From contig NZ_CP087184.1 in assembly GCF_024749045.1 (NCBI RefSeq), positions 310,001 to 374,000 on the forward strand: a DNA stretch of 64,000 nucleotides. The letters are read 5' to 3'. Below the pieces are notes generated by a model. It did no database searches. It saw nothing but the letters and a program-made list of their open reading frames with translations, and was not told where the DNA came from. How positions within the stretch are numbered: the first letter of the stretch is position 1; the number at the start of each line of letters is the position of its first letter. The translations under genes and the position numbers were made by a program. This document shows, in pieces, positions 23,708 to 49,430 of this stretch. The stretch is from Pseudomonas sp. B21-028. Its GTDB lineage: Bacteria > Pseudomonadota > Gammaproteobacteria > Pseudomonadales > Pseudomonadaceae.

Positions 23708-23737
23708 AATTAAAACTTAATTTATATCCACATGTGT
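23708..23737. promoter_or_regulatory. Candidate operator/promoter of the Xre-RES toxin-antitoxin operon
   Basis: AATTAA-AAC-TTAATT (23708-23722) and the palindrome CACATGTG (23730-23737) lie in an AT-rich patch 40-70 bases before the antitoxin ATG, with TATAT between them as a possible -10. Autoregulation by the antitoxin is usual for such operons. Confidence 0.35.
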
Positions 23738-23778
23738 ATTATCCTCTACGCATCACTTGCAAAAGGAGCCCAGATCTC

Positions 23779-24189
23779 ATGGCTACTTCCTCCATCACCC
23801 TCAACGCACAGCAACAACTGGATTCCCCGGACGCGGGTCGAATCGCGTTGAAGTTTTTCTTCAACCTCATGGAGCTGTGGGGCTGCAGTGTCGAGCAACA
23901 GCGCACACTGCTGGGCAAGGTCGGGAACACCACCTTCTACAAGTACAAACAATTGCCCACCAACGTCAGGTTGCCTCGCGACACCCTTGAGCGCATCTCC
24001 TACCTCATGGGCATTCACAAGGCGCTGAGCATCATCTTCAGCAACAGCCGGGACCGGGCCTATCAATGGGTCAGCAGCCCCAATACCGCTGCGCCCTTCA
24101 ACGGCCAATCGGCGCTGTCCTACATGCTGGCCGGACGGGTGGTGGATATCGCCGATGTTCGGCGCTATCTCGACGGAGTACGCGGCTGA
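23779..24189 (+). CDS. Xre/MbcA/ParS-type antitoxin
   Basis: A 136-residue antitoxin. The N-terminal half holds a helix-turn-helix-like Xre region (LMELWGCSVEQQRTLLGKVG, then FYKYKQLP). The C-terminal half is the MbcA/ParS toxin-binding region (YQWVSSPNTAAPFNGQSAL, then MLAGRVVDIADVRRYLDG). AAAAGGAG sits 10 bases before the ATG at 23779. The stop TGA overlaps the toxin ATG by one base, giving 1:1 translational coupling. It neutralises the RES toxin and probably represses the operon. Confidence 0.92.
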   Translation: MATSSITLNAQQQLDSPDAGRIALKFFFNLMELWGCSVEQQRTLLGKVGNTTFYKYKQLPTNVRLPRDTLERISYLMGIHKALSIIFSNSRDRAYQWVSSPNTAAPFNGQSALSYMLAGRVVDIADVRRYLDGVRG

Positions 24190-24866
24190 TGGCGCCACCT
24201 CTGACGGACCCGCAATGGAAGCGTGCCTATCGGATCGTCAACAGCAGCTTCCCGCCGATTACGCTGTTCGAAGATGTACTCGATCCCGAGGATCTGCCCA
24301 CGGCCTATGCCCTGGAAGCGCTGACCAACGATCGATTGATGGAAGAGGCCGGTGTGCTGTCACGGGTCCGTCCCGAAGACCGGGTTTCCGGGCCAGGCTC
24401 CTCGCCGGTAATGGCGGCGTTCACGCATATCGGCAAAAGCAGCCGCTTCAGCGACGGTACCTTCGGCGTCTACTATGCCGCCAGCAGCCAGGAAGCCGCT
24501 ATCGCCGAAACCTGCTATCACCAGGCGCGCTTTCTCGGGGCGACCAATGAGCCGGACCTGGAGTTGACCATGCGCACCTACGTCAACCAGGTCATCAAGC
24601 CCTTGCACGACATCCGCCACGACTACCCCCACCTCCACGATCCGGACCCCACCGCTTACGGCCCGTCCCAGGTATTCGCCCGGCAACTGCGTGAAACATT
24701 ATCCTGGGGCCTGCTCTACAACAGCGTCCGTCTGCCTGGTCACGAATGCGTCGCTGCATTTCGCCCGCCGGCGGTTTCGATTCCGGTGCAGGGCAAGCAT
24801 ATCCGCTATGTCTGGAGCGCCCAGAAGCGGGAGATTTCGTTTGTGTTCGAGGTGAGTCAGGTCTGA
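24189..24866 (+). CDS. RES-domain toxin (NAD+-depleting)
   Basis: A 225-residue RES-family toxin. Known members (MbcT, ParT and relatives) act on NAD+ or ADP-ribosylate targets. The conserved R, E and S are visible: R86 in SSRFSDGTFG, E107 in AIAETCYH, S179 in LLYNSVR. The N-terminal YRIVNSSFPP is typical. The gene is intact, with its antitoxin directly upstream. It ends at a palindromic repeat. Confidence 0.92.
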   Translation: MAPPLTDPQWKRAYRIVNSSFPPITLFEDVLDPEDLPTAYALEALTNDRLMEEAGVLSRVRPEDRVSGPGSSPVMAAFTHIGKSSRFSDGTFGVYYAASSQEAAIAETCYHQARFLGATNEPDLELTMRTYVNQVIKPLHDIRHDYPHLHDPDPTAYGPSQVFARQLRETLSWGLLYNSVRLPGHECVAAFRPPAVSIPVQGKHIRYVWSAQKREISFVFEVSQV

Positions 24867-26792: not shown

Positions 26793-27021
26793 ATGAAAGC
26801 TGGCAAAGCAGCTCGTGTAACAGAGATGCCTTTGTCGGTTGCTGCTGAAGCGAGAGCGAAAGTGGGGGCTCTCAAAGCGCATTCGCTAAGCTGCTGGGAG
26901 TCAGCCTAAGAACATTACAGGACTGGGAACAGGGACGTCGGCAACCAACGGGAGCGGCACAGACATTGTTGCGCGTCGCGACTCAGCACCCCGAGGCTTT
27001 GCGAGATTTGCAGGCGATTTA
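26793..27021 (+). pseudogene. Frameshifted helix-turn-helix antitoxin relic (HigA/NadS type)
   Basis: The frame from ATG 26793 reads [20 protein letters not shown] then RAKVG. A second frame continues with SAFAKLLGVSLRTLQDWEQG, then RRQPTGAAQTLLRV and ends HPEALRDLQAI at the stop at 27021. Together they give one complete antitoxin of the type paired with RelE/HigB toxins. The break lies in the G-run of AAAGTGGGGGCTCT: one extra G would restore the frame. No toxin gene is visible upstream. Either a true single-base inactivation or a sequencing error in a homopolymer. Confidence 0.75.
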
Positions 27022-27349
27022 ACTTGGTTCCTCACAGTCCATACCCGTGCAATGCTGCTCTCATCAATCGAGCAGCGTTGCAGGGTTTACTGGTTTAGAA
27101 GGAGATGTTTCCCGGTGCTTCCAGCACTTTCACCACATCGTCGATTACCGCCTTGCTCATATCCTGCAAATAACACGATGCCCAGGCGTAACGGTCAGTG
27201 CTGCGAATCATCGCTGCGTCTTCGGCCAGCAGTTTGGCAACGTGGAGCAGATCGGAGGCATGGGACAATGCTTCACCGATGGGAACACCGCTGGCGATGC
27301 GAAAGAGTGGGCGGTCGGAGTGGAAGGAGAAGGGGGTTAGGCCTGGGGT
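26966..27349. repeat. 384-bp direct repeat, copy A
   Basis: This segment recurs at 37291-37674 in the same orientation with no gap and only two mismatches that I can see (near 26974 and 26990). It contains the end of the antitoxin relic and almost all of the DUF3077 gene. Identity stops sharply inside the 5' part of that gene. Confidence 0.9.
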
Positions 27350-28703: not shown

Positions 28704-28802
28704 TTTTTCAGGGAGTGGACAAAAGTGAACACCCTGAAACAACAAAGCCCCCGCATTTCTGCGAGGGCTTGTTTTGTATGGTGCGGCACCAGGAGTCGAA
28801 TC
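28704..28802. repeat. Degraded copy of the tRNA-Thr 3' end and its terminator (att-like)
   Basis: This stretch parallels about 40604-40706: the same GTGGA-AAAGTGAACACC segment, the same CCCCGCATTTCTGCGAGGGCTT hairpin, then TGGTGCGGCACCAGGAGTCG (28779-28798), against TGGTGCCGGCACCAGGAATC in tRNA-Thr. One base is lost and two changed within the tRNA part. Orientation is direct. This is what an old integration into the 3' end of a tRNA gene leaves behind. The rest of the gene-free interval 28617-28961 shows nothing else. Confidence 0.7.
28741..28775 (-). terminator. Terminator hairpin, copy of the tRNA-Thr terminator
   Basis: AAGCCCCCGCA-TTTC-TGCGAGGGCTT forms a stem followed on both strands by T/A-rich sequence. 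It could also stop transcription leaving the four-gene island operon, whose last gene ends about 190 bases away. Confidence 0.6.
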
Positions 28803-28961: not shown

Positions 28962-29912
28962 TTACTGCAAAAAAATCGGATAGAGCCAGCTCCTTCCTAT
29001 GCCTTTACTAGTTTCTCTGGAGTACTTTTCAGAAAACGGGAAAATAATACTTGCTGGTGCGCCGTCTAGTTCTTTTAGATAAAAAAGACCAAATCCCAGA
29101 GCTTGTGGCTTCGTAGCTAATGGACTTAGATATAAGTTGGAAGGCGGCGTGTTTTGGCATAGCTTTTGAAGTGCTTTAGAAAGAGCTGTAGCGGTGAAGA
29201 ATGGATCGTTGGCGCTGCTGAAGAATACTTGATCATCACTTTTGTTATTGGGTAAACCGGCGCGATCTAATCGGATTAAACTTTCTTGGTACATGTCGGC
29301 GCTAAGAGATGGAAGACTATGCAATTGAAGATGACGAGCGCGATCTTTATCTAAAGACACTCTGGACATGAGATCACTATCGTACCCAATTCCTAAAAAA
29401 AGTATATCGTTTGATACTTCTCTAGACATGTCAACATTGTGAATTCCTTCAAAGCCTGAAACTTGCCGAACTTCTGTAACGTCCGCTAGTGTGAAATCTG
29501 TATCTTCTTTTCGAGTGTAGTGCAAAGGCTCGGTATAAATCATGTCGAACGTATTTATATTGTTTGCTTTAAAGTATCGTAGGATGAACAAAATTTGCGG
29601 CCGCATAAAACCTGTAATGTCGACGCAGATTTTTGAGTGTTTATTATTTTCATTTAATACCGAGCCAATGGTTTCTATTATTTGGTCCGCTTCATTTAAG
29701 CTGTCGGTTCGTAGAATTAATTCGTCCGCCGGCTCTTCTGCTGCGGTGTACTGGTATTCTGGTATTATAAGCCAATATTTTTTATCAGCTTTTATCTGTC
29801 TAAATGTTTCAGTGACTCGCTCGCTATCATTAAGAGCTGAAAAGAAGAGATCCCACTCCTTATCAAATTCAAGGGGTGTCTTTGCATCTAACAAGTATGA
29901 GATATTGGTCAT
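28962..29912 (-). CDS. Unrecognised Rossmann-like protein, last gene of the island operon
   Basis: A 316-residue protein I cannot assign. The N-terminal half has a Rossmann-like pattern: helix SALNDSERVTETFRQIKADK, strand KYWLIIPEYQ, then ICVDITGFMRPQILFILRYF (residues 95-114), where VDITG is a strand-loop-helix like those of CARF-type sensors. The C-terminal half contains LYLSPLATKPQALGFGLFYL and ends near ASIIFPFSEKYSRETSKG. Its ATG is one base after the ATPase stop, so it is firmly part of the operon. It could be the sensor or effector of the system; this is inference. The gene is AT-rich. Confidence 0.7.
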   Translation of the reverse strand: MTNISYLLDAKTPLEFDKEWDLFFSALNDSERVTETFRQIKADKKYWLIIPEYQYTAAEEPADELILRTDSLNEADQIIETIGSVLNENNKHSKICVDITGFMRPQILFILRYFKANNINTFDMIYTEPLHYTRKEDTDFTLADVTEVRQVSGFEGIHNVDMSREVSNDILFLGIGYDSDLMSRVSLDKDRARHLQLHSLPSLSADMYQESLIRLDRAGLPNNKSDDQVFFSSANDPFFTATALSKALQKLCQNTPPSNLYLSPLATKPQALGFGLFYLKELDGAPASIIFPFSEKYSRETSKGIGRSWLYPIFLQ

Positions 29913-29913
29913 T

Positions 29914-31929
29914 TTAGAATAGTACTTGTTGGTCAGAGGATGCCTTTGCGGAAAAGCCAGGTGCAGACATCGCCGAAACCCGAGACTTTAATAGTGCTTC
30001 GAAGCTGGATGAGTGTGCATGGTCAAATATCGAATTTGCAAGATCTGGCCTTATCTCAAGCGTGCCTCTCCGGTGAACAGACAGGCCCCACTTTGGCGCT
30101 AACATCGGGCTGAGCTGAAACTTAGAGTCGACGCTTTGCGTGTTCTTGTTTTTTGCTCCGTCCCTTATTTTTAGTAAATACGACCAGTTTTCAGCTCGTT
30201 CGAGAGTTAGTCGAGCCTGCTCAGAAATTTTCGACTCATCCACGCTAAACGCACATAAATCGCACTCTGATGGTTTATCACTATATCTGATGGTTCTTAA
30301 TAAAATTGCTAATCTTTCCACCGCATCTCTAACTTCGGTGCCGTAACTGTCAGGTTGAGCGTCATCCCAGAACCAAACCGCGCTATCCATAACTCCTTCA
30401 GTCTGCGATTGTAAGCTTATAGTGCCGCCAGCAAACGGTTTCTCACCTGCAAAGAGGGACCTGCGATAAATCTGCTTCAATACGCCTAAAAGATTGCGAG
30501 GCACCCCTTGAGATAGGTGTATTAGTGTATCTAGTCCCGCATATGGAATTTTGCGGCTATAGTCCCTGAATAGTTGTGCGAGTAGATCTGAATCAAAATG
30601 TTCAAAAGTTTGAACGTACTCTTTTGAGGGTTTAGATTTATTAATTAATTCAATCGAATCTTGGTGTATCTGAAGCGCGGCGTCATGGATTTGTTTGGGG
30701 GTTCCCCAGTTTTTATAAAGCTGCAGTATGTTTAGCTTCTCGACAAGAGGAAATTCGTTTGTGCGCAAAAGATCAATTATTTCTTGGACTTTACCTTCGG
30801 ATTTACTGCCAAAGACCTGACTCAGGTGCGCTTTCAGCTTTTCAAAATAAGGCCTATCATTTTCGGACGTTTGTCTGGAGCTCGCGAGTTTTGATGTAAG
30901 CTCCTGATAAAAGTTTGCAGGCGAGATTGCTTCAAAGAAGCTGGAGACATCTTTAAAGTCCACAACACCTGTGTGAGCTGAATTAAGTCTTTTTGCCACC
31001 AGTTCTTCTGCCAGCTTTGCGTATTCTTTTTCATGTCCACGTAAAAAACTGTCTAGTTCAACTCTTTCGTATTCTGCAGTGCGCTTTATGGGTTCGCCAG
31101 AGCCCGCGGTTGAATATGTCTTAATTCCATATAATCTTGCGCCTACTCTGAGTGTGGCATTACCCTTGCGGTAGCGAATGAGGGAGTTTAAAAATTTTTG
31201 TTGCTCTACGCTAAGGTTTTCTATTTCGTCAATTAAATAGACGAACGTTGCTTCGCTCAGTGATTGTTCATACTTCGCAATGATAGGTGGAATGCCGAAG
31301 CAAAGGCGTCCAGGTGAAAAAGTTATTTCCAGGCCTGCCAAGCTTCTAGTTACAGCAGAGTTGTTAACTATGCTATCGACGCCACGTAATTTCTCCTCAA
31401 GAAAAGTATATAGGCTATCTAAGCTTTGTATGTCCTGAGGTGGAAGATCAAATAGGGCGGAGACTTCTCTGGCGAAAGCAGTCTCATCAAGTAAGAGTGG
31501 TTCTGATTTATTCTTTAATATTATTATAGATATTAAATTTAGCGTAAGCCATAGTTCAAAGTAATATCCAAATATTGCTGTCCAAGTTTCTTGTGTTTGC
31601 CCCTTCCCTGCAAAACGACCAACATTTAGGCCGTCAGCGGATACATATATGCCCAAATAGCCTTCTTGGCTGACAGCGGAGCTGAGGCTGCCACCGTGTC
31701 TGAGAGACTGTACTGGAGCAGAGCAATATCGCATCAAATGCGTCTTACCGCTTCCTTTTCCACCTAACAGCAACATAGGCATGACCGACCTCAAATTAAG
31801 GACAGTTAAAAGGCCGCCATGTTCTTCTACGATATCTACCCAGTAGTTGAATATTTGTGTGTCAGAAAAGTCGGACGCCTTTGTTAAATCAAAAGGGTTG
31901 TCGTCACGTTGTGCAAGTTCGTTTAGCAT
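29914..31929 (-). CDS. ORC/CDC6-like AAA ATPase of the island operon
   Basis: A 671-residue P-loop ATPase. Walker A is GGKGSGKT at residues 56-63 (in PMLLLGGKGSGKTHLMRY), Walker B is VYLIDEIENL at 230-239 (D234, E235), followed by FLNSLIRYRKGNATLRVGAR, which fits sensor 1. A helical stretch at 420-470 and QGVPRNLLGVLKQIYRRS near 485, resembling the AAA lid/sensor 2 arginine, follow. The layout resembles bacterial ORC-CDC6-type AAA proteins found in predicted conflict systems. Its start lies four bases after the PRTase stop. Probable role: nucleotide-driven switch or DNA/target recognition. Confidence 0.8.
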   Translation of the reverse strand: MLNELAQRDDNPFDLTKASDFSDTQIFNYWVDIVEEHGGLLTVLNLRSVMPMLLLGGKGSGKTHLMRYCSAPVQSLRHGGSLSSAVSQEGYLGIYVSADGLNVGRFAGKGQTQETWTAIFGYYFELWLTLNLISIIILKNKSEPLLLDETAFAREVSALFDLPPQDIQSLDSLYTFLEEKLRGVDSIVNNSAVTRSLAGLEITFSPGRLCFGIPPIIAKYEQSLSEATFVYLIDEIENLSVEQQKFLNSLIRYRKGNATLRVGARLYGIKTYSTAGSGEPIKRTAEYERVELDSFLRGHEKEYAKLAEELVAKRLNSAHTGVVDFKDVSSFFEAISPANFYQELTSKLASSRQTSENDRPYFEKLKAHLSQVFGSKSEGKVQEIIDLLRTNEFPLVEKLNILQLYKNWGTPKQIHDAALQIHQDSIELINKSKPSKEYVQTFEHFDSDLLAQLFRDYSRKIPYAGLDTLIHLSQGVPRNLLGVLKQIYRRSLFAGEKPFAGGTISLQSQTEGVMDSAVWFWDDAQPDSYGTEVRDAVERLAILLRTIRYSDKPSECDLCAFSVDESKISEQARLTLERAENWSYLLKIRDGAKNKNTQSVDSKFQLSPMLAPKWGLSVHRRGTLEIRPDLANSIFDHAHSSSFEALLKSRVSAMSAPGFSAKASSDQQVLF

Positions 31930-31933
31930 AATT

Positions 31934-32914
31934 TTACACCTTCGGATATCGTCTAAATGCCGGGGTCCAAGCTGCGCCTGCGTGATTTTCCGAATCCATC
32001 CAGATTATAGGAAGCGTATTATCTGGTGTGTTGTGAGTAAACCCTAACAGCATCTGGCTATCTAAGTAACCTCTTGGATGTCTCGGGCATAATAGTTCGC
32101 CATATATATCCGTGACTTTTCTAGCTGAAGCTAGATCAATCCCGCTTGGTGTAGATTTAAAATATCTTGAGTCGTTGTCCACACATTTGTATGACTTGTC
32201 GAACTCGTAGACCGCTCCGCAATTATTGCCGAAAGCGCTGTCATCTCTTACAACCTTCATTCCGTCAGCATTCGCAAATAAACAAAAGTAATAAATTTTA
32301 ACTTTGTCACTTAAACTTAGCATTTCTTTCAGAAAATCATTTGAATATCGCACAGCTGTTTCGCCCGACCCACATACGTCGTCGACGAATACGTAACGTT
32401 CTATTTCAGAGTATCGCAAGACCCTTTGTTGAGTCTTTTGATCCCTGGTTATGATTTGTGCGTTATCCGCGAACTGCAGTTTAGAGAGGCTGTTTTCTTG
32501 TCTGAAATAATAAAGAAGATGGACGCCGCTTTCTGAGGGGTTTCCTACGCCAAGAAAACGTGTTTTTGAGATTTCTACGTTTAGAGCTTGAGATATTTGA
32601 CCAAGATCTCTTGTATTGCCGAGAGCTTGCCTTGTTTCCTGAATTAATGGTGCTAAAAATAGATCGTTATAAATTGCGCGCAAGAGTACGCGTATTTCCC
32701 TACTGCCGAAATACATGAACTGCGACAATAGATACAGTGCATGAATGCGCTCAGTCTCCGGGTCAAGACCTGTTCGCCCTGTAAAGTTTTCTAACCATCG
32801 ATTTATAGCATCGTTATCTAGCTTATGCTCCCATGCCCTCTCGTTCAGTATTGTGATACGTTGTTTCAATAATCCTGCAGTTTCCTCAGTATTGCTCGAG
32901 AAGTAGCTGTTCAT
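31934..32914 (-). CDS. Phosphoribosyltransferase-like protein of the island operon
   Basis: A 326-residue protein with an alpha-helical N-terminus (HALYLLSQFMYFGSREIRVL) and a type I PRTase-like core. The PRPP-loop signature is YVFVDDVCGSGETA (residues 174-187), where two acidic residues precede the G-S-G turn. It lacks motifs of known nucleotide-salvage PRTases. It resembles PRTase-like proteins reported beside ORC-CDC6-type ATPases in conflict systems (assignment from memory, to be tested). It overlaps the methyltransferase by four bases (ATGA). It might act on a nucleotide or a nucleic-acid base. Confidence 0.75.
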   Translation of the reverse strand: MNSYFSSNTEETAGLLKQRITILNERAWEHKLDNDAINRWLENFTGRTGLDPETERIHALYLLSQFMYFGSREIRVLLRAIYNDLFLAPLIQETRQALGNTRDLGQISQALNVEISKTRFLGVGNPSESGVHLLYYFRQENSLSKLQFADNAQIITRDQKTQQRVLRYSEIERYVFVDDVCGSGETAVRYSNDFLKEMLSLSDKVKIYYFCLFANADGMKVVRDDSAFGNNCGAVYEFDKSYKCVDNDSRYFKSTPSGIDLASARKVTDIYGELLCPRHPRGYLDSQMLLGFTHNTPDNTLPIIWMDSENHAGAAWTPAFRRYPKV

Positions 32915-34323
32915 TTCACGTCCTTGCTTGAAACTTTCTTAAACAATATCACCCATTCACGAGAGATCAAGCCTGCGGTTTTATTTCTTTTCGTCATCAG
33001 CCCGCGTGATTTTATCTCATCTACGGCCTTCAATACTGGTACTAACTCATGCTTCTCGGCTATCGTAGTTAAATATTCAGAGGACGAGAATATCTCGCCG
33101 CAAACTTCATTATTGCCGATAATTAAAACAAGATGACCGTTTTCGGCGAGCACCCGTGACATTTCGGCAATGCAAGATTCCATCTCGTTTATGTAAGTTG
33201 CTATGATGGCTGCTCGTAGGGGGTTTTTTTGCCTTACTCTTACGATTAAATCATTCGCAGCTGGAACGGAAGAAACGAATGACGTGCTCCATACTGATTT
33301 AGGAAGATGTTCTCGGCCTATGCTTTGATTCTCTAATCCTTTGAGATCGCCGCTACCGGCCATTCCTAGCCATCCAAGACTTAGGCTAGAAGCCCTTATG
33401 TATTTTTGTGCGCCAGCATAAGGGGGAGATGTAATAATTAAATCTATAGTGCCCTCCGCTAGCTGCTTCTGAGATTCACTATTCCAAGGTGCTGGTTTTT
33501 TTAGTTGTCTAGCATCAAATCCGACATTGTGTGATTTGAAATCCTCAGAGCTTAAACTGATGAGCGCATTCATTCTCTGAATGCTTAACTCTGCCTGTTG
33601 TGAAAAAATTTCAATGGCACTAACATTTTTTCTAACGTTGGACGGTTTTCTCTGAACCGGAACTGATAACCTAGGGTCAGCATTGCTAGATCTTCTGACA
33701 GTGGCAGAAAATACGACAAGAAAAAAATCTCTGATATCTAAGTTTTCAATTTTTTCGATTGAAGACTTTAATCTCGACAAGCCACGTATTACGTCCGGGG
33801 TAAACCACTTTTCTAGGTTGACTACATCAGGAGCTTTCTTCGCTCGAGACTGCTTGTAGCTAAATTTTATGATCTCTAGTTCAGAAGTTAAGGCGCTAGG
33901 ATCTATTCTTGTTATTTTCACCTTTGCTATAAGTCTGGCAAGTGGGTTTGCGTCGGAATAATAGGCTTCATTGCCAGATAATAGCGTTTCTAGCGCAACA
34001 GTTCCGGTTCCGCCAAACGGATCGAGTACTTTTATGCCTTTTCCAAAATAACCCCTTGCAGCAAGGAAAAAGTGCGCTATTTGAGGTAATAATTTAGCGG
34101 GGTAAGGATGTATATAATGAGTAGCGCGTTCACCAACTTTTATCCAAGATACTAGACTTCTAAAGGATAGAGTTTGAGACTCTCCGGTGGAAGCATATTC
34201 TTTGATTATTGACTCGAGGGCTAGTGTCGTATCATATTCATATGCGGCCGAAATTTCGCTCTTCGCGTCGAGTGCAATGGCTTCTGTTGCACCTAAATTG
34301 ATGTTGAAGGCATTAAGATCCAT
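32911..34323 (-). CDS. DNA amino-methyltransferase-like protein, first gene of the island operon
   Basis: A 470-residue SAM-dependent methyltransferase of the N6-adenine/N4-cytosine class. Motif I (SAM binding) is DPFGGTGT at residues 101-108, and motif IV (catalytic) is TSPPY at 298-302. HPYPAKLLP (72-80) precedes motif I. Motif I lies before IV with about 190 residues between, a place for target recognition. The C-terminal NGHLVLIIGNNEV is the motif VIII-like strand. It leads a tight operon with three non-restriction partners, so it may mark self DNA or make a modified base. No restriction endonuclease is visible. The ribosome-binding site is weak. Confidence 0.85.
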   Translation of the reverse strand: MDLNAFNINLGATEAIALDAKSEISAAYEYDTTLALESIIKEYASTGESQTLSFRSLVSWIKVGERATHYIHPYPAKLLPQIAHFFLAARGYFGKGIKVLDPFGGTGTVALETLLSGNEAYYSDANPLARLIAKVKITRIDPSALTSELEIIKFSYKQSRAKKAPDVVNLEKWFTPDVIRGLSRLKSSIEKIENLDIRDFFLVVFSATVRRSSNADPRLSVPVQRKPSNVRKNVSAIEIFSQQAELSIQRMNALISLSSEDFKSHNVGFDARQLKKPAPWNSESQKQLAEGTIDLIITSPPYAGAQKYIRASSLSLGWLGMAGSGDLKGLENQSIGREHLPKSVWSTSFVSSVPAANDLIVRVRQKNPLRAAIIATYINEMESCIAEMSRVLAENGHLVLIIGNNEVCGEIFSSSEYLTTIAEKHELVPVLKAVDEIKSRGLMTKRNKTAGLISREWVILFKKVSSKDVK

Positions 34324-34475
34324 TAGCTCATAAGGCCTCGTTCGACGGATGATAAATAATAAATAGCTTTGATTTTTTGTTGTTGGCTTGGAATGCGCTG
34401 AAATTGAGTTCTTTGGTTTTAGGGTGAAGCTTCATCAGGGCAATATCCAAGTTAAAGGCCGCTCGCATATACTTA

Positions 34476-34898
34476 TTAGCCAATGCAATTTAAGGGGCTA
34501 ATTTTAGGAGCTGGCTTTTGTGGAGCCTCAGCCGGTTCTGTCCTATTTTGGCTGACGCCGGGCTTTCTGCCTAGCGTGTTTTGACCTCGCTTTACCGGTT
34601 TGTCTATCGAAAGGTTCACGGCAAGGTTTTTCCAATCCTCGGTTTTTCCAAGTCGCTCGCAAATGAGTTTTGCGGTCAGGCGGTAATAATACTGGGTTGC
34701 AGGGGCGTGGTGACTGATCTCGCGAGTTAGGAACCAGTGAAAATGTTTTGCTTTCCAGGACCATGGAGAACGAAGACCCCATCGAGCGGCGATTGCTTCT
34801 TGCATTTTGCTCGCTTGTGTGATGTGGCGTTTTCTGGTTGAGTGAGACCCGACGAGTCGCCCCGATAGGAAAAGCTGCATATTGAACGGCTTGCTCAT
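34476..34898 (-). CDS. Small basic protein coupled to the tyrosine recombinase
   Basis: A 140-residue basic protein: residues 15-60 are rich in Arg, Lys and aromatic residues (GSHSTRKRHITQASKMQEAI, then WSWKAKHFHWFLTREI), a central helix is YYYRLTAKLICERLGK, and the Pro-rich tail ends KISPLNCIG. No known domain is recognised. It overlaps the recombinase stop by four bases (ATGA), so it is probably a recombination accessory factor. The interval 34324-34475 to the methyltransferase start is AT-rich and should hold the defence operon promoter. Confidence 0.65.
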   Translation of the reverse strand: MSKPFNMQLFLSGRLVGSHSTRKRHITQASKMQEAIAARWGLRSPWSWKAKHFHWFLTREISHHAPATQYYYRLTAKLICERLGKTEDWKNLAVNLSIDKPVKRGQNTLGRKPGVSQNRTEPAEAPQKPAPKISPLNCIG

Positions 34899-35920
34899 CC
34901 TATGACCCCAATGTACGCAGAAACTATGTCAATGCGGCTATGCCCTAACTCGTAACTGATTTGTTCTCGGGCAAATCTATCAATACATCTGTTTTTTCTA
35001 GCAGAAGATCCACCATTCACAGGGGCAGGCTGCAAAGTAATCTCCTCGTAGCGTTCGCACGCATACGCCGCTCGCAATTCGTGGAAGCCTTTAACGTTGT
35101 GCATGTGGAGGACGTGTCGAGCTGGGCGGACCATTCCCTTCTGGAAGTCGAGGTAGCTTTCGTTTGGCGCGAGTAGGTTGTGGCTACCGTCAGGCGAGAC
35201 TTGATTGGCGAATGCCAGTGCGTCGCGGATGTACTCATCCACTGTTATCCACCGAGAGGCCGAGGCGCCCGAACGGCCACCTTTGGTGCCTTCCTGGATG
35301 TTGATTTTGCCGTATTGTTCGGCTTCATGTTTGAAACGTGAAAGGTCCGCCAAAATGGCCCCGCGCATGCGCATCCCAGTGGCTCGTGCCAAATGCGCAA
35401 TCGCTGCGGCGTGTGGGTACTGCTCGCAAAGCGCGGCGACAATCCGCATTACTCGCTCACGTTCTTGGCCTTGTGGGGCTGTTGTTCGGACGGAAGTGCG
35501 CCGCATTCCCAGTGCCTTGCTCGGGCTCGGTACTTTCATGTGCTGATCACCGCGAAGCGCTGCCATGGTCCGGTTGACGCTGGACAATCGGTTCTGCGCG
35601 GTGGCAATGGCGAATTCACCTTGTTCAACTTGGTGGCGCAGATGTACTGCATAGTCCAGCAAAGTCTGCCGATCTATCTGCCGCGCATCGTTAAACACCG
35701 GCCCATCCTCTGAACGACACCAGCGCACAAACGCCTGCCACCGATCACTGTGTGCTTTGACGGTCCCGTAGTGCCCACCGCCAAACAGATCTTTCAATTC
35801 TTGCGGTCCGGCATAGCTCAGTTGCCGACCATAGCCAAAATTGCGTCCACCTCGCCCGCCCACTAGTGCCACGATAGAGCTCCTCTCGAAGCCAAAACGT
35901 TTAAAACTTCCCCACGTCAT
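34895..35920 (-). CDS. Tyrosine recombinase (integrase domain protein)
   Basis: A 341-residue site-specific recombinase. A SAM-like core-binding domain lies at about residues 45-125 (GTVKAHSDRWQAFVRWCRSE, then RLSSVNRTMAAL). The catalytic domain shows R184 (ATGMRMRGA), K213 (GTKGG), H280-x-x-R283 (FHELRAAYA), H327 (ELGHSRIDI) and the nucleophile Y336 (SAYIG) close to the C-terminus, so all catalytic residues are present. It is transcribed toward the defence operon and coupled to the small gene downstream. It is the likely mover of this element. Confidence 0.85.
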   Translation of the reverse strand: MTWGSFKRFGFERSSIVALVGGRGGRNFGYGRQLSYAGPQELKDLFGGGHYGTVKAHSDRWQAFVRWCRSEDGPVFNDARQIDRQTLLDYAVHLRHQVEQGEFAIATAQNRLSSVNRTMAALRGDQHMKVPSPSKALGMRRTSVRTTAPQGQERERVMRIVAALCEQYPHAAAIAHLARATGMRMRGAILADLSRFKHEAEQYGKINIQEGTKGGRSGASASRWITVDEYIRDALAFANQVSPDGSHNLLAPNESYLDFQKGMVRPARHVLHMHNVKGFHELRAAYACERYEEITLQPAPVNGGSSARKNRCIDRFAREQISYELGHSRIDIVSAYIGVIG

Positions 35921-37100: not shown

Positions 37101-37292
37101 TCAACTCCTCCTCTCTGCGCCAATGCCAGGCTTCGCCTTTATCCGAGTAACGTTATCTCCAATCTGGTTGGCGAATTCGTGTGGAGTGACATGCTCCTGC
37201 CGGTTGGCCTCCAGGTACCAGCTCCACCAGTTCATGATCAGCCTGCGCTCCTCAATGAACTCGGCCTTGTGGATGTAAGCGGCGCGGACGTT
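37101..37292 (-). pseudogene. C-terminal relic of a phage-type integrase
   Basis: The minus-strand frame ending at TGA 37101-37103 reads VRAAYIHKAEFIEERRLIMN, then WWSWYLEANRQEHVTP and HEFANQIGDNVTRI. The AAY-HKA-F--ERR-LM--WA-YL pattern is the typical C-terminus of P4/lambda-type prophage integrases, just after the catalytic tyrosine. All sequence upstream is replaced by the 384-bp repeat, so the gene was cut at that junction. It marks an older integrase that could have used the tRNA-Thr site. Confidence 0.75.
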
Positions 37293-37674
37293 GTTGCGAG
37301 TCGCGACTCAGCACTCCGAGGCTTTGCGAGATTTGCAGGCGATTTAACTTGGTTCCTCACAGTCCATACCCGTGCAATGCTGCTCTCATCAATCGAGCAG
37401 CGTTGCAGGGTTTACTGGTTTAGAAGGAGATGTTTCCCGGTGCTTCCAGCACTTTCACCACATCGTCGATTACCGCCTTGCTCATATCCTGCAAATAACA
37501 CGATGCCCAGGCGTAACGGTCAGTGCTGCGAATCATCGCTGCGTCTTCGGCCAGCAGTTTGGCAACGTGGAGCAGATCGGAGGCATGGGACAATGCTTCA
37601 CCGATGGGAACACCGCTGGCGATGCGAAAGAGTGGGCGGTCGGAGTGGAAGGAGAAGGGGGTTAGGCCTGGGGT
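37291..37674. repeat. 384-bp direct repeat, copy B
   Basis: Matches 26966-27349 base for base apart from two visible changes. It starts inside the former antitoxin reading frame (LLRVATQH then EALRDLQAI and the stop), joined abruptly to the integrase relic, so this copy arrived as a fragment. The distance between the copies is 10,325 bases. Confidence 0.9.
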
Positions 37675-39434: not shown

Positions 39435-40424
39435 CTATTCCAAACACCATTGCTGCTGACGTTTCCAATCATCTGGAAACCCCATGAGTCTCAAATAACC
39501 CGGTTCTTGCCGGTCCATGATTTTGGCCAGGCGAAGCTTCCACTGGCTGTCCGGACTGATTAAGTCGGTAAGATAGGCCAGCATCGTCAACACGATGTAT
39601 AGCCGCTGCTTGGGCTGAGGCCCGTCGGCAGATGCAACTGGGATGACCCATTCCTTGGGCAATGCGGGTCGAATCGAGAGCTCTCGATTCCATAGTCGTG
39701 AGTGATGGGCACAGCAGTTTCGAATGAAAGTCAGGGTGTGTAGCCAGGAGGCCAATACATCGAAGGGCAGATTGAATCTTACGGCGATAGCTTTCTTATC
39801 GGCACTTCTGCCTATGGCATTGAAGAGGGTAGATACCGTCCCAAGACTGAGTTCTTCCAAGACCGCCCACGCGGGCGGCAGCTCAGGGTAGGCGTAGGTT
39901 GCTCCGTAGTATCGGAAATAGTTATCGCGCATCCGGTTTTCGATCCGCTGCTGCTGGACGCCATTGGCCTGTCGACCATTTTTTATACGCTCGATATCAC
40001 GTCTGAGTTTTTTGCTCTCTTTGTTTAATTGCTCCCGCAAAGGGCGCAACAGCTCAAGATGGGGGTACGACGAGGAGAAGATCGACGCATCAACTATCCA
40101 ATCGGGACCATATTTAGGGCACATGTGATTGCTGATAGTCGCTCGTATGGCGACTTCGACACATTCGATGGCGTCCATGGTTATACGCCGCAAAGAACCA
40201 TCGAAGCGGTAGATGTTGACGACTGCTTTCAGGGTGCTACCGGGTTTGAAGGTGTGTTCAGGGTCTGGTTCCTGGAAGGGGCGCATATAGGGACTCAGGC
40301 GAAACAGCGTGACCACTTCGAGAAAACGCATGGCCCGGTCATCGTTGACGACGTGCAGACCTCGTTGCTTTAGCAGTTCCAATTGCTGTTCTACGCTGAG
40401 GGCCGGCTTGTCGAAGGGCCTCAT
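39435..40424 (-). CDS. Abi_2-family abortive infection protein (AbiD/AbiF-like)
   Basis: A 329-residue Abi_2 protein, a HEPN-type predicted RNase that stops phage growth by cell suicide or dormancy. The N-terminus KPALSVEQQLELLKQRGLHV and FRLSPYMRPF are typical, and the HEPN R-x4-H motif is visible in FIRNCCAHHSRLWNR. The start at 40424 has GGAG eight bases ahead. It lies directly inside the tRNA-Thr end of the island, consistent with a defence hotspot. Confidence 0.88.
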   Translation of the reverse strand: MRPFDKPALSVEQQLELLKQRGLHVVNDDRAMRFLEVVTLFRLSPYMRPFQEPDPEHTFKPGSTLKAVVNIYRFDGSLRRITMDAIECVEVAIRATISNHMCPKYGPDWIVDASIFSSSYPHLELLRPLREQLNKESKKLRRDIERIKNGRQANGVQQQRIENRMRDNYFRYYGATYAYPELPPAWAVLEELSLGTVSTLFNAIGRSADKKAIAVRFNLPFDVLASWLHTLTFIRNCCAHHSRLWNRELSIRPALPKEWVIPVASADGPQPKQRLYIVLTMLAYLTDLISPDSQWKLRLAKIMDRQEPGYLRLMGFPDDWKRQQQWCLE

Positions 40425-40575
40425 GTAGTTTTCTCCAGACAAAAAAAACCCGCACGATTTGAGCTTGCTGACTGGGTCAACCTAGGCTTGGCGGGTGTGT
40501 TGGGGTGCATTATAGGTAGCTGGGGAAGATCGTCAACTTCATGGTGAAGTGAAATTGTAACGGGTAGGGATGGCC

Positions 40576-40604: not shown

Positions 40605-40640
40605 TTTTCAGGTAGTGGAGAAAAAGTGAACACCCCGAAA

Positions 40641-40674
40641 CAACAAAGCCCCCGCATTTCTGCGAGGGCTTCGT
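40641..40674 (-). terminator. Terminator of tRNA-Thr
   Basis: On the minus strand AGCCCTCGCA-GAAA-TGCGGGGGCT forms a stem followed by TTGTTGTTT, seven bases after the tRNA 3' end. Confidence 0.75.
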
Positions 40675-40680
40675 CTTGTA

Positions 40681-40756
<76 letters not shown>

Positions 40757-46822: not shown

Positions 46823-47881
46823 TCAGCTGCCTTCAGCCGCTGTGCCCGATGCTTGTTCCTCAAGTCGCGACCGCTCACGATCCAGTTCATTGCGTAGCTC
46901 TTCTTCTGTGGGGAGTACAAGTTGGTACTGGCTGGCGAAAAGTTGTTCGTTGCCTTGCAACACGGAGTAGCGCACTACCGACTCGTCCTTCTGCGCACAG
47001 AGAATGATACCAACGGTGGGTTTGTCGTCCGGGCCGCGCCTCTGGTCATCGTAGAGGCGGACATACATGTCCATCTGGCCGATGTCCTGATGGCTGAGTT
47101 CGCCGCGCTTGAGGTCGACAATCACAAAGCACTTGAGCAGATAGTTGTAGAAGACGAGGTCGATGTAGAAGTCCTTGCTCTCGGTGCTGATGCGCTGCTG
47201 ACGAGCAACGAAGGCGAAGCCCTTGCCCAGTTCGAGGAGAAAACCCTGTAACTGGTCGATCAAGGCCTGTTCCAGATCGGTTTCCAGCAGGAGGCCGGCA
47301 TTGGGCAGCCCGAGGAACTCCAGGACGACCGGATCCCTGACGATATCCCTTGGGCCGAGATCGAGGGCTTTCAGGTTGTCCGAGGCCTCCTGCTTTACCT
47401 TGGGCCGGTCGCGGCTTGCCAGCAGGCGCTCGTAGTAGAAGGTTCCGATCTGGCGTTCCAGGGCGCGGGTGGACCAGTTTTGCGTGGCGGTTTCGTTCAT
47501 GTACCAATGCCGGGCGTTATCGTTTTCCACCCGTAGAAGCGTGCGGTAATGGGTCCAGCTCAATTCGTGACGCAGTGCGTCACACTTTGGAAATGCCTGA
47601 TAAAAAAGCCGCATATAACGCAGATTCGAGGCATCGAAGCCTTTACCAAACTTCGCCGTAAGTGTTTTTGCCAGAATTGGCAGCAGCCGTTTCCCATAAG
47701 CTGCACGCTCTGCTCCCCCCTGCTCGAATTCAACGATATGCCGTCCAATCTGCCAGCAGGTATGTACTTGAAGCGTATCAACGGCGCGCAGCACTTTACG
47801 GCGTGCCTGCTGGATCAGCTCACCGAGTTCGTTGATCAGCGGCGCAAGCTTTGGATCGTCTTGGGGCAAAAGTGGACTCAT
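46823..47881 (-). CDS. DUF1016 (YhcG-like) PD-(D/E)XK nuclease-domain protein
   Basis: A 352-residue protein. The N-terminal DUF1016 domain (about 10-160) shows CWQIGRHIVEFEQGGAERAA, YGKRLLPILAKTL and FGKGFDASNLRYMRLFYQAF. The C-terminal PD-(D/E)XK-type domain (about 180-340) has the core FYIDLVFYNYLLKCFVIVDL followed by KRG, with D and D-x-K in place. Such proteins often accompany restriction or other mobile defence genes, though this one stands alone. Its ribosome-binding site is weak. Confidence 0.85.
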   Translation of the reverse strand: MSPLLPQDDPKLAPLINELGELIQQARRKVLRAVDTLQVHTCWQIGRHIVEFEQGGAERAAYGKRLLPILAKTLTAKFGKGFDASNLRYMRLFYQAFPKCDALRHELSWTHYRTLLRVENDNARHWYMNETATQNWSTRALERQIGTFYYERLLASRDRPKVKQEASDNLKALDLGPRDIVRDPVVLEFLGLPNAGLLLETDLEQALIDQLQGFLLELGKGFAFVARQQRISTESKDFYIDLVFYNYLLKCFVIVDLKRGELSHQDIGQMDMYVRLYDDQRRGPDDKPTVGIILCAQKDESVVRYSVLQGNEQLFASQYQLVLPTEEELRNELDRERSRLEEQASGTAAEGS

Positions 47882-49354: not shown

Positions 49355-49430
49355 TGGTGCCCAGAGACGGAATCGAACCGCCGACACGGGGATTTTCAAT
49401 CCCCTGCTCTACCGACTGAGCTATCTGGGC
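49355..49430 (-). tRNA. tRNA-Phe (anticodon GAA)
   Basis: Minus-strand 76-base cloverleaf: acceptor GCCCAGA, D-arm GCTCAGTCGGTAGAGC, anticodon stem-loop GGGGATTGAAAATCCCC with anticodon GAA, T-arm with GGTTCGATTCC, encoded CCA. Confidence 0.97.

Follow-up and report, generated by a model that had tools for sequence, protein, structure and literature searches.

Two of the protein domains treated here, PRTase-CE (phosphoribosyltransferase-like) and ORC-CDC6-like (an AAA+ ATPase), are already named in Pfam, in entries that we take to be PF24390 and PF24389, respectively, and are components of predicted biological conflict systems. Nicastro et al. (2023) reportedly surveyed nucleotide-targeting immune effectors by bioinformatic means, probably making the earlier prediction of the PRTase-CE/ORC part, and their effector set is said to include HD-CE and calcineurin-type enzymes, as found at the effector position of the relatives described below. 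The CARF6 clade of sensor proteins is said to owe its name to Makarova et al. (2020). A stretch of 64,000 nucleotides from Pseudomonas sp. B21-028 (contig NZ_CP087184.1, positions 310,001 to 374,000; hereafter the window) carries both Pfam domains in an operon of four genes, coding for a DNA methyltransferase, a PRTase-CE protein, an ORC-CDC6-like ATPase and a CARF6 protein. This operon recurs as a linked, co-evolving unit in diverse bacteria and very probably has an immune role. The reading that we favour, at about even confidence, is abortive infection gated by methylation and regulated by the CARF protein, with the PRTase attacking nucleotides. The four genes follow one another on the minus strand, with a 4-base overlap, a 4-base gap and a 1-base gap at the successive junctions:

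32911..34323, minus strand: DNA methyltransferase of the N4/N6 amino-methylase type, 470 aa (motif I DPFGGTGT, then TSPPY)
31934..32914, minus strand: PRTase-CE phosphoribosyltransferase-like protein, 326 aa, probable effector (Pfam PRTase-CE)
29914..31929, minus strand: ORC-CDC6-like AAA+ ATPase, 671 aa (Pfam ORC-CDC6-like; Walker A GGKGSGKT, Walker B YLIDE)
28962..29912, minus strand: CARF6 protein, 316 aa, with two CARF-type Rossmann domains, probable ligand sensor (profile and fold)

A preliminary description of this DNA, made from its letters alone, had reported four genes on one strand with these spacings, six sequence motifs and an AT-rich composition. Coordinates, strand and spacings were all verified, the six motifs were present in the translations, and the GC content was 0.40–0.45 per 1-kb interval over positions 29,001–35,000, against 0.495–0.676 in all remaining intervals. 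Its assignment of the first three proteins was likewise borne out by Pfam matches over the cut-off for each. The methyltransferase matched N6_N4_Mtase (E 5.8e-8) and the PADLOC model MTase_II (E 2.2e-42), its profile retrieved DNA methylases from the PDB (2zie, E 4.2e-12), and its catalytic motifs fell in the class of at least 97% conservation among 49 sequences. The PRTase scored 199.6 bits with PRTase-CE, for a cut-off of 27, its PRPP-loop (phosphoribosyl pyrophosphate) residues D178 and D179 were invariant in the alignment of relatives, and comparison of its structure model placed uracil PRTase as the nearest fold. The ATPase reached 437.7 bits (E 9.8e-131) with ORC-CDC6-like, also for a cut-off of 27, and K58, G59, S60, G61, K62 and T63, together with D234 and E235, were invariant in 30 sequences. 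This ATPase family has one copy in the 6.49-Mb single-contig genome, and for both the ATPase and the CARF protein the closest named relatives come from P. syringae.

The fourth protein, previously taken as unknown and as a possible effector, turned out to be a recognisable tandem-CARF protein of sensor type, assigned to CARF6 by a PADLOC profile match and by its Rossmann CARF fold. Its residues D98, T100, G101 and K268 belonged to the class of at least 97% conservation, in an alignment that left out ORFs shorter than 280 aa (L034, L041) and two loci lacking the CARF gene (L037, L048); these residues sit at the expected motifs and may line a putative ligand pocket. No recognised effector domain was seen in this protein, which was dismissed as the effector since it is a CARF protein by profile and fold, leaving the PRTase as the probable effector. 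Domain identity was thus established for all four proteins and the fold for two of them, the PRTase and the CARF protein; by sequence, no convincing solved relative was retrieved for the CARF protein, the PRTase or the ATPase (best E 0.034, 0.36 and 0.022, respectively).

The operon resembles the predicted PRTase-CE/ORC-CDC6-like conflict systems in that its PRTase and its ATPase both score far over the Pfam cut-offs. Within the CARF6 clade, its CARF protein stands alone, with neither a fused effector domain nor a known cyclic-oligonucleotide synthase in the operon. With cyclic-oligonucleotide-based antiphage signalling systems (CBASS) that have SAVED receptors and type III CRISPR that has CARF effectors, it shares, by the structure model, the sensor fold of Cap4/Cap5 SAVED, Can1 and Csm6, and PADLOC PRTase_III-A profiles matched its PRTase (E 7.7e-34). 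It differs from them in that sensor and effector are separate proteins, a methylase and an ORC ATPase are added, and neither CD-NTase nor Cas10 is encoded in the operon. Moreover, neither SMODS nor Csm1 was detected in its own genome (no Cmr2-specific Cas10 model was used), which gave a single, weak match to the Cas10-palm model (29.6 bits), perhaps from a GGDEF protein, and so the linked or genomic synthase typical of these signalling systems was found in neither place.

In the case of bacteriophage exclusion (BREX), the likeness lies in the combination of a methylase with an ATPase of the ORC-CDC6 class, BrxC/BrxD being described as ORC-Cdc6 AAA+ proteins in PMC12839542. However, PglZ and the BREX set are missing from the operon, with a PRTase and a CARF protein in their place; BREX was rejected, as no operon protein matched PglZ and the methylase touched PglX-type profiles weakly (E 3.5e-5). 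Classical restriction-modification was likewise rejected, since no restriction endonuclease family exceeded its cut-off in the four proteins. The phosphoribosyltransferase-like anti-phage protein DS-32 (NCBIfam NF053875) gave a weak local match near the PRPP loop, at residues 167–216, and membership was rejected at 17 bits for a cut-off of 250. Neither PADLOC nor NCBIfam yielded a match for the operon as a whole, and no characterised system with the same four-gene set was found in the literature searched, which covered few subscription papers, in agreement with the earlier statement that no mechanism had been characterised for this combination. Within that literature, the role of a cyclase-free tandem-CARF protein in such a set and the link to thymidylate synthase described below are apparently new.

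GTDB genomes were scanned with an alignment of the ATPase, which yielded 48 loci; because the loci were sampled through their relatedness to this ATPase, the result is valid for its clade. Methyltransferase, PRTase and ATPase genes occurred in the same order and on one strand in 48/48 loci, and the CARF gene came next in 46, the contig ending inside the ATPase in the other two (L037 and L048). Some further members were incomplete, namely the methylase at the contig start (L020, L021), the CARF ORF (L034, L041) and the ATPase of L041, split in two ORFs. The ATPase also retrieved an IMG/VR contig with the same order (L050), whose matches equal those of L014 and which was excluded from the counts of 48. 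Median junction gaps were −4, 2.5 and −4 bases, and at each of the three junctions 45 of 46 gaps were of 30 bases or less. The linkage of the operon genes is therefore far beyond chance, and the doubt raised in the preliminary description, that the four genes might not co-occur in other genomes, fails, because they co-occur widely and in the order whose recurrence it had proposed to check.

The four proteins also co-evolve. Distance correlations, computed on 43 rows after removal of loci without any full-length member, were 0.876 for ATPase and CARF protein, 0.818 for PRTase and ATPase, 0.809 for PRTase and CARF protein and 0.62–0.67 for the methylase with the others, the permuted maxima being at most 0.236. 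By these correlations, the core appears to consist of the ATPase and the CARF protein, with the methylase as the loosest member. The ATPase tree (46 rows, ORFs shorter than 600 aa removed; support below 80 on 10 of 43 inner branches) bore labels of ten phyla, including Pseudomonadota, Bacteroidota, Chlorobiota, Nitrospirota, Verrucomicrobiota and Elusimicrobiota. The ORC-CDC6-like family is sparse: genomes over its Pfam cut-off, with weak scorers near the cut-off that include other ATPases, numbered 25/398 in Pseudomonas, 14/398 in the phylum, 13/198 in the phylum of the Bacteroides carrier and 8/289 in the class of the Sphingomonas carrier. Two of the 20 loci taken from the search in Pseudomonas (L001, L051) belonged to the window type, and the CARF protein was unmatched in 50,697 phage records.

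In a wider set of 20 more distant loci over the cut-off, fetched with their flanks (L099–L118), both effector and methylase are exchanged. The enzyme in second position was a PRTase in 15 of them, a metallophosphatase in four (L104, L105, L107, L116) and an HD-CE protein in one (L115). A methylase was recognised in 13, of the N4/N6, N6_Mtase, C5 or D12 type and placed 5′ or 3′ of the core, that of L100 lying just at the Pfam cut-off. The CARF protein was recognised by profile in 15 of the 20 and was retained beside the HD-CE effector (hhalign probability 97%). In the metallophosphatase loci, the proteins at the CARF position matched the CARF profile weakly (hhalign probability 4–56%) and are candidate CARF-like proteins by shared motifs. 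Such swaps indicate that the ATPase and its CARF partner form a chassis on which the PRTase is one interchangeable effector, and they strengthen the reading of the PRTase as effector, which the preliminary description had offered as a possibility and which, together with the identification of the CARF protein, can now be called probable.

Defence-type neighbours were also met, with an Abi_2 gene on the window's own element, SIR2 and TIR genes beside wider relatives and SIR2 beside a plasmid copy. In L108 (5920-12212), a PRTase-ATPase-CARF set with no recognised methylase lies between SIR2_2 and TIR_2 genes. In L106 (1050-9030), genes for an N6 methylase, a 573-aa ATPase and a 329-aa protein adjoin a PRTase-ATPase-CARF set, making two related tandem modules, and in L117 and L118 HAD-phosphatase-like and PfkB-kinase-like genes occupy the expected methylase place 5′ of the PRTase.

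Klebsiella-type IncF plasmids carry a divergent version composed of an N6 methylase, PRTase-CE, ORC and CARF (hhalign 98% for the last). It was found in 142 plasmid records, mostly of Klebsiella, where three of its genes are labelled hypothetical among the rows listed, and in 4 of 5426 E. coli genomes, always on plasmids; by the number of these records, the system is common where phage therapy is considered. The copy in Klebsiella pKPHS2 (L183:3711-8787) is an example of this divergent operon and likely an unrecognised defence system.

A second recurrent association was with thymidylate synthase, a gene for which adjoined the operon in 11 of the 48 loci, within 200 bp of it and in the same orientation. 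ThyX and ThyA are unrelated enzymes that make the same product, and both were recruited: ThyX in nine loci, 5′ of the methylase (L002, L003, L004, L005, L023, L032, L034) or 3′ of the CARF gene (L026, L047), and ThyA in two, 5′ of the operon (L024, L028). Pfam confirmed the ThyX of L002, L004, L005, L023, L026, L034 and L047 and the ThyA of L024, while the synthases of L003 and L032 were identified by a ThyX profile, and that of L028 by a ThyA profile, constructed for the analysis. A further thymidylate synthase was present elsewhere in all 11 genomes, as well as in that of L033, which, like the plasmid L186, has thyX nearby on the opposite strand and is outside the 11. Among six plasmid loci of the window type, the five with thyX beside the operon were all rhizobial, and the one from Moraxella was without it. 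What we take to be the ThyX active-site motif was complete in eight of ten proteins, with one S-to-N change in two. Chance adjacency is estimated at far below 1% per locus, such genes numbering one or two per several thousand. On the ATPase tree, the presence of thymidylate synthase needs at least six changes, a rough figure given the support of its inner branches. Similarly, a dUTPase gene lies 10 bp downstream of the CARF gene in L049 and a dUTPase_2 gene follows it in the variant L101.

That these relatives have repeatedly gained a second thymidylate synthase, or in single cases a dUTPase, suggests a target, or a sensed ligand, close to the dUMP/dTMP pool. We hold this dU/dT link of the system at somewhat less than even confidence, and for the operon of the window it would be an extrapolation from its relatives. 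PMC13092281 reports the recent validation of a thymidylate synthase as a defence domain in another system, a precedent for the theme. In L044, two matches located 3 kb 5′ of the operon, one of them partial, were not counted, as they may belong to a separate cluster. This cluster (L044:3088-7565, Pseudomonas), on one strand and 5′ of the operon, contains partial and full thymidylate synthase, HIT, kinase-like TCAD9 and PurM-like genes and is maybe a second nucleotide-centred system.

According to the favoured reading, the methylase would mark host DNA as self and the ORC-CDC6-like ATPase would assemble on foreign or unmarked DNA, a predicted sensing role that draws on ATPases of this class ringing DNA elsewhere (PMC10853773). 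The CARF protein would then read a nucleotide-type ligand as a checkpoint and, together with the ATPase, release the PRTase, which would destroy or divert a nucleotide or a precursor, halting phage DNA synthesis and aborting the infection. Where a thymidylate synthase is linked, it may buffer leakage of the effector or keep a sensed dUMP-type ligand low. Confidence differs among these parts: the PRTase as effector is probable, and methylation gating is somewhat favoured. If true, this would be methylase-gated immunity attacking nucleotides rather than DNA, under a CARF sensor for which no signal synthase is known. It would make testable what a CARF protein reads in the absence of a cyclic-oligonucleotide synthase and what PRTase-CE effectors do, and the thymidylate-synthase link points to a concrete pool to measure.

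Several observations weigh against this reading. The attack on nucleotides is a prediction in which hydrolysis is assumed, and PRTases usually build nucleotides. No methylase was seen among the scanned neighbours, which were only some of those present, in 7 of the 20 wider loci (L108–L111, L116–L118), so that methylation gating is not universal. A scan for signal synthases in 27 carrier genomes, the window's own (G000) and those of 26 of the 48 loci, found Csm1-type Cas10 over the cut-off in 0/27 and a CD-NTase (SMODS) in 4/27, leaving the CARF ligand without an obvious maker among the models used, none of them specific to Cmr2 or to other cyclases. The Cas10-palm model PF22335 gave matches in 8/27, over the cut-off in 5/27 and at best of 36.5 bits; we read them as GGDEF cross-hits because the E. 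coli control matches too. A resident cyclase was accordingly unsupported as the usual source of the ligand in these 27 genomes, and the CARF protein may read a ligand made otherwise or be structural. Furthermore, thymidylate synthase is absent from the window's operon and from 37 of the 48 loci, rhizobia dominate the ThyX-linked cases, and in one of the 24 genomes checked for copies (G790, locus L006) ThyX is not linked to the operon, contrary to a simple rule.

A more novel alternative, possible as a minority view, takes the ATPase and the tandem-CARF protein as a cyclase-free chassis with interchangeable methylases and nucleotide-attacking effectors that would guard or starve the thymidylate pool, a private ThyX or ThyA in some lineages setting the threshold or allowing survival of the attack. 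If so, the CARF protein would be a sensor of a metabolic nucleotide and not of a cyclic oligonucleotide. A related explanation, which we regard as rather doubtful, is that phage takeover upsets the dUMP/dUTP/dTMP pool or leads to uracil-rich DNA, which the CARF/ATPase core would sense, and that the extra enzyme holds the uninfected cell below the threshold. The recruitment of two unrelated synthases in same-strand joins, surplus to another genomic copy, speaks for it, as do the dUTPase genes of L049 and L101 and the uracil PRTase fold nearest to the PRTase; the same absence of thymidylate synthase from most loci applies to it.

It is improbable that the PRTase instead makes a nucleotide-like signal that is read by the CARF protein, with the ATPase or another component as effector. 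CARF proteins normally read nucleotides, there is no linked cyclase and PRTases can make nucleotides; conflict PRTases have been proposed, in PMC5512222, to produce or sense them. Nevertheless, the CARF protein is kept in L115, where the effector is HD-CE, which makes a PRTase product unlikely as its ligand, and no other effector domain was found. Decidedly improbable is a system like restriction-modification, in which one of the four proteins would hide a nuclease that performs the restriction step: the methylase and the ATPase do resemble restriction systems, and PADLOC groups the methylase with type II enzymes, but no nuclease family of Pfam, PADLOC or NCBIfam exceeded its cut-off, known non-nuclease folds account for the CARF and PRTase models, and the second position of relatives is held by nucleotide- or phosphate-acting enzymes. 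A non-immune maintenance or DNA-modification module of a mobile element, acting in addiction or replication control, is very improbable, for although the operon is borne by integrase elements and many plasmids, its patchy distribution, the exchange of versions at one site, the defence neighbours and the nucleotide-targeting swaps suit immunity better, and abortive systems stabilise elements too.

The operon is carried by a mobile element. The tyrosine recombinase and tRNA island of the preliminary description were both verified, and the element, of about 11.9 kb, lies at the tRNA-Thr gene with its likely ends marked by a direct repeat (92% identical over 99 bp). The complete system without visible nuclease proposed at the outset thus stands as a recurring module on a tRNA island, with no nuclease that could be recognised, its defensive function being what we infer. 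The features of the element are as follows:

28705..28800: left att-like repeat with a copy of the tRNA-Thr 3′ end
34476..34898, minus strand: 140-aa protein that accompanies the integrase, with whose gene it has a 4-base overlap (no Pfam match)
34895..35920, minus strand: tyrosine recombinase, likely mover of the element (Pfam Integrase_1, E 1.2e-6)
39435-40442, minus strand: Abi_2 gene within the same tRNA-Thr element (PF07751, E 2.5e-44)
40605..40703: right att-like repeat, overlapping the tRNA-Thr 3′ end
40681..40756, minus strand: tRNA-Thr (TGT), the integration site

Another Pseudomonas genome (G267, locus L099) has a 70% identical integrase at tRNA-Thr, accompanied by a small protein 46% identical to the 140-aa protein over 82 aa, yet its four operon genes are only 32–41% identical to those of the window, which indicates that cargo was swapped at a single site. 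In two further genomes (G010, G018), the left-flank sequence is about 550–770 bp away from the tRNA-side repeat. None of the four genes was present in six fetched tRNA-Thr regions (L177–L182), one of which carries a 70% identical integrase.

Other features were observed around the element and in its relatives. A second Abi_2 gene lies 3′ of the CARF gene in L113. In the window, a 300-bp direct repeat, 98% identical, occurs in the DUF3077 gene region at 26953-27252 and 37278-37577, one copy left of the element and one within it, perhaps as the trace of an earlier rearrangement. A toxin-antitoxin pair on the plus strand (23734-24866) consists of an Xre/MbcA-type antitoxin followed by a RES-domain toxin, and a DUF1016/YhcG PDDEXK nuclease gene, of a type frequent in defence islands, is placed at 46823-47881 on the minus strand, near tRNA-Phe (49355-49430).

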